From contig JAACCU010000119.1 of NCBI GenBank assembly GCA_009937405.1, forward strand, positions 1 to 47,472: a stretch of 47,472 bases of DNA, written 5' to 3'. The notes under the pieces were generated by a model. The model did not search any database and had not been told where the DNA came from. It was given only the letters and a program-made list of their open reading frames with translations. This DNA comes from Actinomycetota bacterium (GTDB lineage: Bacteria > Actinomycetota > Acidimicrobiia > Acidimicrobiales > Aldehydirespiratoraceae). The position numbers and the translations under genes are program-made. Within the stretch, counting starts at the first letter, position 1. The number at the start of each line of letters is the position of its first letter. Shown here piece by piece: positions 45,070-47,244 of this stretch.

Positions 45070-45506
45070 CGGTCGGCCCCAGAGCCGAACGGATCGACCC
45101 ATATCGGGGCCGCGAGCGCGCCATCGGGCACTGGCGTCAGCATCACGAGAGATGCCGACTCGACAAGTCCGGCGGCTGCCGCTTGCGTCGCGAGTCCCTC
45201 GGGAGAGTCGGCGGCAGCCAACGATGCCACTGCCCGTGTCACCTCGGTTTCGAGGACCACATTTTCAGCATTGATGGCGTCGATCTGGGCTTGCCCCTGC
45301 ACGAGCATGGCGTGGATAGCGGCGAGAACGAACAGTGTGACAAAAACGACCAGAAGAAGGGTGGAACCGATGGCGCCGACAGTGCGGATCCGAGTGTCGG
45401 GTCGAACGACTTGAAGCGGAGCGCGCCGCGGGGCTGCCTTGAGCGGGCGGGGCACCGGAGCCGACGATGCGACCCTTGGCGACAGGGCGGGGCGAGCGGC
45501 GGCCAT
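45066..45506 (-). CDS. ftsL: FtsL-like division protein
   Basis: Small single-TM protein between rsmH and ftsI with a basic N terminus and a short heptad-like region after the TM. Confidence 0.75.
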   Translation of the reverse strand: MAAARPALSPRVASSAPVPRPLKAAPRRAPLQVVRPDTRIRTVGAIGSTLLLVVFVTLFVLAAIHAMLVQGQAQIDAINAENVVLETEVTRAVASLAAADSPEGLATQAAAAGLVESASLVMLTPVPDGALAAPIWVDPFGSGADR

Positions 45507-46477
45507 CAGGCGACTTCCGCGAGCTTCTCAACGGCGCGAAAACGGGCGGCTTCAGAGCGCGGATTGCGCTCGATCTCTGCCTCACTCGGCTTCCGAGCGC
45601 CTCGCCACAGCAAGCGAACTGTCGGCTCGTTCCCAGGCGGCGGGGGAAGTTCTGGACGCTGACGAGGAGCTTCGCCAGCTTCATCACGGAAGAGACGTTT
45701 TACAATCCGGTCCTCACCGGAGTGGTACGAGAGCACGGCACACCGACCTTGTGGGGCGAGAAGGTCAAGAGCTTGTTGAATGGCGTCCTCGAGGATGTCG
45801 AGTTCCTCGTTGATCTCGATGCGTAGCGCCTGGAATGTCTTGCGGGCCGGGTGTCCACCTTTACGACGAACAGCCGCAGGTACAGCATCACGAACAACGT
45901 CAGCGAGTTGAGCCGTGGTGGAGAACGGCCGGTTGGCCACGATGGCCTTGGCGATGCGCGGGGCTTGCCGCTCGTCGCTGTTGCGCCGAAGGATGCCGAT
46001 CAATGATCCCTCATCGATGGTGTTCACAAAACCTGCTGCAGTAATGCCCTTCGAGCGGTCCATACGCATGTCCAGGGGACCATCGTTTCGGAAGCTGAAT
46101 CCGCGATCGGCATGGTCGAGCTGAGGCGAACTCACGCCCAGGTCGAACAATGCACCGGAAAGCTGAGTGTGTCCAAGAGAGCGGACCGCATCGGCGAGAC
46201 CATCGAAACGGGTGTGGCGGAGGGTCACCCGGTCGCCATGGGGTGCGAGCCGGGTGCCAGCAGCGGCGAGTGCCTGCTCATCCTGGTCGAGACCAAGGAT
46301 CGAGAGGCCCTCGTTTACTGCGAGAAGAGCGGATGCATGGCCGGCACCGCCGAGCGTGGCATCGACGACGAGGCCATCAGGAACTTCCGAGAGCACTGAT
46401 ACGACCTCGTCACGCATGACAGACACGTGGGAGAACGGTTTCGTGCCGCCAGTCTGGTTGTCGACGTTGTCGGTCAT
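45506..46477 (-). CDS. rsmH: 16S rRNA (cytosine(1402)-N(4))-methyltransferase RsmH/MraW
   Basis: HVSVMRDEVVSVLSEVPDGLVVDATLGGAGHASALL; FDLGVSSPQLDHADRGFSFRNDGPLDMRMD; SYHSGEDRIVKRLFRD. Confidence 0.96.
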   Translation of the reverse strand: MTDNVDNQTGGTKPFSHVSVMRDEVVSVLSEVPDGLVVDATLGGAGHASALLAVNEGLSILGLDQDEQALAAAGTRLAPHGDRVTLRHTRFDGLADAVRSLGHTQLSGALFDLGVSSPQLDHADRGFSFRNDGPLDMRMDRSKGITAAGFVNTIDEGSLIGILRRNSDERQAPRIAKAIVANRPFSTTAQLADVVRDAVPAAVRRKGGHPARKTFQALRIEINEELDILEDAIQQALDLLAPQGRCAVLSYHSGEDRIVKRLFRDEAGEAPRQRPELPPPPGNEPTVRLLWRGARKPSEAEIERNPRSEAARFRAVEKLAEVA

Positions 46478-46519
46478 GGTTCAAAACACCCGGTGTGAGG
46501 CCGCTGCGGCCGAATCGCC

Positions 46520-46629
46520 CATCTGCAGTCTCCCGATCGGCGGCGCACGCCGGGATTTCTCCCCGGTCGTGCTAATGGCAAGCGGGCGGAGTACGGGTCT
46601 TCCATTTGCTGATCGGAAGACTGCAGATG
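46520..46629 (-). promoter_or_regulatory. Structured mraZ-rsmH intergenic element, candidate cis-regulatory RNA
   Basis: Arms 46520..46541 and 46608..46629 form a 22-bp stem with one G-U and one A-C mismatch; nested 10-bp hairpin at 46545..46572 with one bulge. Confidence 0.6.
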
Positions 46630-46677
46630 TTCGGTTCGTTCACTGGTGGCCAGTAGCCGGGTAGATCCTTTCCTGCG

Positions 46678-47115
46678 TTAGTTGGGTCCGAAGCCGTGCC
46701 CGCGCTCGATGGCGTCGGTGAGTTTTTCGGCGCCGCTCGGGCTGATGCTCGACCAGCGCTCCGGGTTCCAGAGCTCGATACGGCGAAGCGCGCCGGTGAC
46801 AATGACGTTGCGGTCGAGTCCACCCAATTCGCGCAGATGCGGAAGCAGACGAACTCGGCCTTGAGAATCGGGGGTGACCTCGTCGGCCTGGCTGGCGAAG
46901 TGACGCAACGCATCGACTCCAACGTCGCCCTTGGCTACCTGTGCTTCGAGTCGATCAGCCATCCGGTCGAACTCTTCGGCCGGAAGGATCGCCAAGCAAT
47001 GGTCGAGCGGCGTGATGAACGCTCCCTCGGCCAGCTTTGCTCGAAACGACGACGGGAGAATGAGCCGGCCTTTGTCGTCGATTGTGTGTTCGAAGTTTCC
47101 GACAAACCGTGCCAT
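46678..47115 (-). CDS. mraZ: Transcriptional regulator MraZ
   Basis: GNFEHTIDDKGRLILPSSFRAKL; ASQADEVTPDSQGRVRLLPHLRELGGLDRNVIVTGALRRIELWNPERW. Confidence 0.96.
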   Translation of the reverse strand: MARFVGNFEHTIDDKGRLILPSSFRAKLAEGAFITPLDHCLAILPAEEFDRMADRLEAQVAKGDVGVDALRHFASQADEVTPDSQGRVRLLPHLRELGGLDRNVIVTGALRRIELWNPERWSSISPSGAEKLTDAIERGHGFGPN

Positions 47116-47179: not shown

Positions 47180-47244
47180 CCCCTCGGTCCCCTAACAGGA
47201 TCCCTAGCACTCCATATCGCCCCACACTACTCCCCATACCTCCA
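47180..47244 (-). promoter_or_regulatory. G-rich direct repeats upstream of mraZ, candidate MraZ operator
   Basis: Minus strand: TGGAGgtaTGGGGagtagtgTGGGGcgataTGGAGtgcTAGGGatcctgtTAGGGGaccgAGGGG. Confidence 0.4.

Follow-up and report, generated by a model that had tools for sequence, protein, structure and literature searches.

A conserved, covarying RNA element between mraZ and rsmH in Acidimicrobiia, a probable translational leader of rsmH

A structured RNA located 5' of mraW (the same gene as rsmH) has been described in Actinobacteria as the mraW RNA (RF01746; Weinberg 2010, PMC2864571), which is listed for the Actinomycetales and is a single unbranched hairpin carrying the loop ACUUCCCC. 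Translational autoregulation is on record for another 16S methyltransferase gene, sgm of Micromonospora zionensis (Kojic 1996, cited in PMC2791848), and the RsmH of E. coli is known to act on the assembled 30S subunit, free 16S RNA being insufficient (PMC5053481). We describe here an RNA element found in the class Acidimicrobiia only, which shares with the mraW RNA its structured nature, its place 5' of rsmH in Actinobacteria, a long stem, and a C-rich apical loop, and which is quite likely to work as an mRNA leader between mraZ and rsmH controlling the translation of rsmH and perhaps also that of the later genes.

The window, that is, the whole stretch of 47,472 nucleotides that was analysed, comes from a marine actinobacterium and ends in the first part of a minus-strand dcw operon, in the order mraZ, rsmH, and genes for an FtsL-like protein and a penicillin-binding protein. 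The mraZ-rsmH gap (46478..46677, 200 nt, minus strand) folds at -99.8 kcal/mol against -74.3 kcal/mol in shuffles (z -5.5, 0/200), and thus the original prediction of a highly structured gap was borne out. The gap is single-copy, with no second convincing match genome-wide, and a dispersed repeat or mobile element was rejected because the genome search convincingly matches this gap alone. Two further features were seen around mraZ. Directly 3' of its stop codon, a GAAAGGA motif is conserved in the family (46672..46666 in the window, and relatives), and 5' of the gene, at 47236..47210 on the minus strand, there are TGGGG/TGGAG repeats about 10 bp apart (TGGGGAGTAGTGTGGGGCGATATGGAG), with similar ones in many relatives, which on sequence grounds are likely the MraZ operator over the dcw promoter.

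Within the gap, a stretch of 110 nt is nearly invariant across the mraZ-rsmH gaps of 24 family genomes, while its flanks diverge. Its layout consists of a long closing stem (P1), a hairpin (P2) whose loop contains CUCCGCCCG, and another hairpin (P3, GGGGAGAMAUCCC), as collected in Table 1. Both the predicted stem of 22 positions with one G-U and one A-C and the predicted bulged hairpin are there, and correspond to P1 and P3, respectively; the small ACTGG-CCA-CCAGT hairpin also proposed is present in the window, but in the sister genome L010 its pairing is disrupted. Several further lineages of the class have no P3 but keep P1 and the P2 loop, and a kissing contact between the P2 and P3 loops (CUCC/GGAG) was set aside because P3 is lost in these lineages and the P2 loop stays. 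The P2 loop (CUC...CCC) is the most conserved unpaired stretch of the element, with 94 to 100% conservation per column, and its CCGCCC is kept in 82 of the 89 sequences of the order-level alignment, and also in all 7 class-level matches outside the order and in 19 of 20 further ones (26/27), even without P3. A few relatives have CCACCC or CCGCAU in its place.

Table 1. Coordinates of the RNA element, its parts, and the neighboring genes in the window
Feature	Position	Strand	Basis
Conserved RNA element, 110 nt	46520..46629	-	R1 132.3 bits, R2 120.9 bits
P1, 5' arm	46608..46629	-	Helix 1 (alignment A4): double-sided changes in 18/19 pairs, 94.9% of cells paired
P1, 3' arm, with GGGAG (46534..46530) and AUG (46522..46520)	46520..46541	-	
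Hairpin P2, with the most conserved loop	46573..46606	-	Helix 3: double-sided changes in 8/8 pairs, 96% paired
P2 loop CUCCGCCCG, highly conserved; CCGCCC at 46589..46584	46583..46591	-	
Hairpin P3, loop GAGAAAU	46545..46572	-	Helices 5 and 6 of the alignment
Outer stem P0, 5' side (ACCCGG)	46657..46662	-	Minimum free energy structure; cognate flank pairing
Outer stem P0, 3' side (CCGGGU), 10 nt 5' of the rsmH start	46488..46493	-	Same basis as the 5' side
Upstream ORF, 13 codons (MGDSAAAASHRVF, then stop), with the P1 AUG as its start and its stop 3 nt 5' of the rsmH ATG	46481..46522	-	
rsmH, 16S rRNA (cytosine1402-N4)-methyltransferase	45506..46477	-	TIGR00006 equivalog, 283 bits (cut-off 154)
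mraZ	46678..47115	-	Best NCBIfam match TIGR00242, 78.8 bits, below the cut-off of 98; operon position

Covariation counts came out in favor of conserved pairing: in an alignment of 89 distinct sequences, 92.4% of the cells pair, and 39 of the 42 pairs show changes on both sides (0/500 shuffles). The covariation score was 0.474, against 0.202 in shuffled alignments and 0.057 to 0.108 with the partners slid, and although these counts are uncorrected for shared ancestry, the slid controls preserve it. G-U pairs (314) are far above A-C (51) in the same sequences, and therefore it is the mraZ-to-rsmH strand that has been selected, as RNA. These comparisons support the identification of the gap element as a cis-acting RNA that belongs to the dcw operon and is both conserved and covarying. 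The mutually exclusive hairpins of the original prediction fared differently: the TCTTCC/GGAAGA pairing can form in the window, but all seven of its pairs are possible in just 16 of the 89 relatives, and three of the seven are broken in 39 to 52 of them, while P1 covaries strongly. Of the predicted cis-regulatory switch of the dcw operon, the conserved and covarying cis RNA, placed to control rsmH, is supported, and the competing fold is not.

The distribution of the element was followed with two covariance models, R1, built from 22 of the 24 family gaps, and R2, built from 89 diverse copies. R1 matched 150 of the 248 genomes of the order, and R2 matched 220 of the 296 Acidimicrobiia genomes with at least 90% completeness, in 127 of 163 genera. 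In a phylum sample of 397 genomes, R2 gave 22 matches, all of them in Acidimicrobiia, and none in the approximately 359 sampled actinobacteria outside this class (359 being taken from the list order), an absence that holds at the search threshold with strict filters; the E-values of the covariance models are rough. The exact core pattern was found in 35 stretches of the named GTDB collection, nearly all of them MAGs titled Acidimicrobiia, Acidimicrobiales, or Acidimicrobiaceae, with the remaining few titled only Actinomycetes, Actinomycetota, or, for one record, "Actinomyces sp.". A sister genus of the same family (g2; L029-L033, L201) has no element in its mraZ-rsmH gap of about 35 nt, and the element is therefore dispensable; this genus is a natural loss useful for comparison. 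One MAG, NAT108, has the element on two contigs (L062, L070), either from a mixed bin or from a duplication.

The original prediction had left open whether the element belongs to the mraW motif. The RF01746 model gave no match in the window or its own genome (E<=10), nor, at E<=5, in 37 relatives, 17 of them from the family and 20 distant, with 6 of 120 actinobacterial genomes scoring above the cut-off as the positive control, and conversely, R1 (E<=1) and R2 (E<=0.01) matched none of the six RF01746 loci (L039-L044). The RF01746 RNAs are so symmetric that their model also matches the opposite strand (L039-L041, L048-L050). Against Rfam as a whole, the window had no match at the gathering threshold and no credible match at E<=10, and the relatives searched had none either; an RF01723 match on the plus strand (18.4 bits, gathering 40, E 6) and three weak matches in distant relatives were set aside as chance. 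In the literature searched, which omits most subscription papers, we found no published description of the element. Judged by sequence and models, then, it is a separate RNA of the class Acidimicrobiia that occupies the genomic place of the mraW RNA and lies outside the Rfam mraW family.

The position of the element is as constant as its structure: it lies 5' of rsmH in all the 89 order-level and 20 class-level copies examined, nearly always directly so, with the spacing exception of G008 (L089, L200), where about 600 nt of repetitive sequence separate the element from the rsmH homology. In 33 of the 89 genomes, the rsmH start codon is formed by the last three bases of P1, with the Shine-Dalgarno sequence buried too, and in about 29 of these 33, another rsmH start is unlikely because the RsmH homology begins within 18 nt. 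In 37 genomes, rsmH starts at the P1 end or close to it, and the fold predictions for these leave the start codon unpaired with a probability of only 0.06, and -18..-7 with one of 0.05. The median duplex energy to the anti-Shine-Dalgarno is -7.6 kcal/mol for the 16 nt 5' of the P1 AUG, versus -3.0 in control windows, and the pairing of P1 extends beyond the AUG in 87/89 genomes at +3 and in 85/89 at +4. The P1 AUG was nonetheless rejected as a universal rsmH start, given that it has this role in about 33 of the 89 genomes and elsewhere opens an upstream ORF or has decayed; in about a dozen relatives, it reads AAG, ATC, ACC, or others, and P1 therefore cannot work through that AUG alone.

In 50 genomes, the window included, the rsmH start is displaced to at least 15 nt past P1. 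In this displaced class, the predicted unpaired probability is 0.33 at -18..-7 and 0.43 at the start codon, so that the start region is partly paired and repression is less certain there. The segment from P1 to the start pairs with its own 5' flank at a mean of -32.3 kcal/mol, compared with -25.5 with the flanks of others (z -10.9, 0/10000 permutations; still z -6.8 when the first six bases are left out). In the same 50 genomes, the coding region after the rsmH start shows no such preference (z 0.5); thus, the helix moves with the start codon. The outer stem P0 is the form that this pairing takes in the window (Table 1). The layout with an upstream ORF of 13 codons is shared by the sister genome L010, while the sister genomes L011 and L012 have another framing, and translational coupling of this ORF to rsmH would be a reasonable inference from the sequence.

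We suggest that the rsmH ribosome-binding region is held in helical form by P1 and its outward extension. The Shine-Dalgarno sequence and the start codon make up the P1 3' arm itself in many relatives, while in the window's family, the rsmH start has shifted about 35 to 50 nt downstream, with the stem extended outward toward it and the P1 AUG opening a short upstream ORF. The C-rich conserved P2 loop would then be the presumed sensor, bound by a regulator that either stabilises or opens P1. The predicted burial of the start region by P1 plus its extension is the best-supported reading of the mechanism, and since the element usually buries or closely flanks the rsmH start signal, it probably sets the amount of the enzyme. 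We infer that the helix represses rsmH translation and that a regulator binds the P2 loop, for which RsmH itself is a specific but weakly supported candidate. A covarying RNA structure, as would be expected of a translational leader, was found, and the ribosome-binding site lies inside it in the 33 genomes whose rsmH start falls within P1 and partially so where the start is displaced, as in the window.

Several other explanations must be weighed against this leader mechanism. The P2 loop may instead belong to a riboswitch or be used by a small RNA or a protein other than RsmH, which would then be only the regulated gene; we place this somewhat short of an even chance. The strongly conserved loops speak for it, and start-codon occlusion is a common expression platform, but P3 is dispensable in the class, which leaves one hairpin with a short conserved loop, a shape more fitting for the binding of a protein or an RNA than for a metabolite pocket, and Rfam gives no match. 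An almost perfect duplex of about 20 bp separating two genes of the same operon could also suggest RNase III processing, or an mRNA-stability element separating the mraZ message from the remaining dcw operon; this we consider improbable, given that it explains neither the conserved P2 loop nor the helix tracking the rsmH start codon. Even less credit is due to a DNA operator for MraZ, a very improbable reading in which the opposite strand of the loop (GGGCGGAGTAGGGG) resembles the TGGRG repeats 5' of mraZ. In the mraZ upstream regions, TGG(A/G)G repeats do recur at a spacing of about 10 bp, and these regions have GGAGTA in common with the loop, but this string is only 6 nt, and the covariation, in which G-U greatly outnumbers A-C, shows that selection acts on the RNA.

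A specific form of the translational-leader explanation is autogenous control, in which RsmH would bind the P2 loop as a copy of its 16S target and lock P1 when the enzyme exceeds the ribosomes. The gene downstream does encode RsmH (TIGR00006), and CCGCCC corresponds to 16S positions 1399-1404 around C1402, the base methylated by RsmH, in a site read as GTACACACCGCCCGTC in seven relatives. The persistence of this hexamer across the order and the class, the loss of P3 notwithstanding, points in the same direction, as does the best ungapped match of ACUCCGCCCG and CUCCGCCCG in a 5.3-kb rRNA stretch, which is the 1398-1405 site (tied for the shorter one), and the run of 7 nt, CCGCCCG, has a p of 0.02 to 0.05 in composition-preserving shuffles. 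The translational autoregulation of sgm is a precedent, and the same hexamer, CCGCCC, has reportedly been proposed for the repression of sgm via its own mRNA. On the other side, when the whole loop is aligned to 16S with gaps, the match at the site falls short of significance (p 0.14 to 0.32), longer versions of the loop rank other rRNA sites first, the conserved CCCCUACU is left unaccounted for, and the few relatives with CCACCC or CCGCAU do not fit. Besides, the E. coli enzyme requires the assembled 30S and not free 16S RNA (PMC5053481). All in all, we regard such autogenous control as unlikely, and the class-wide version, in which RsmH would gauge its own level against its 30S substrate by binding the mRNA copy CCGC(1402)CC, as a speculative proposal with a low chance of holding. 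If true, this mimicry would couple ribosome maturation to the expression of the division and cell-wall operon.

In summary, the element amounts to an additional, well-supported RNA family whose gene context is clear, present in about three quarters of the sampled Acidimicrobiia and not in Rfam. It is located where the division and cell-wall cluster begins, and covers or flanks the start of the gene of a 16S decoding-site methyltransferase. Because of this location, the control of rsmH, possibly by its own product, is directly testable. Compared with the single hairpin of the mraW RNA, the element has a P2/P3 branch, or P2 alone, with another loop, and a 3' arm that ends at a start codon. The autoregulation of sgm resembles the rsmH case in concerning the gene of a 16S decoding-site methyltransferase, and differs from it in the enzyme, which acts on G1405 and confers antibiotic resistance, while RsmH binding is here only putative; sgm is not known to have a conserved class-wide structured leader. 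The autoregulatory leaders of ribosomal proteins are similar in having a helix around the translation start and, as a possible protein-binding site, a conserved hairpin, with the difference that the gene controlled in this case encodes an rRNA-modifying enzyme within a cell-division operon.
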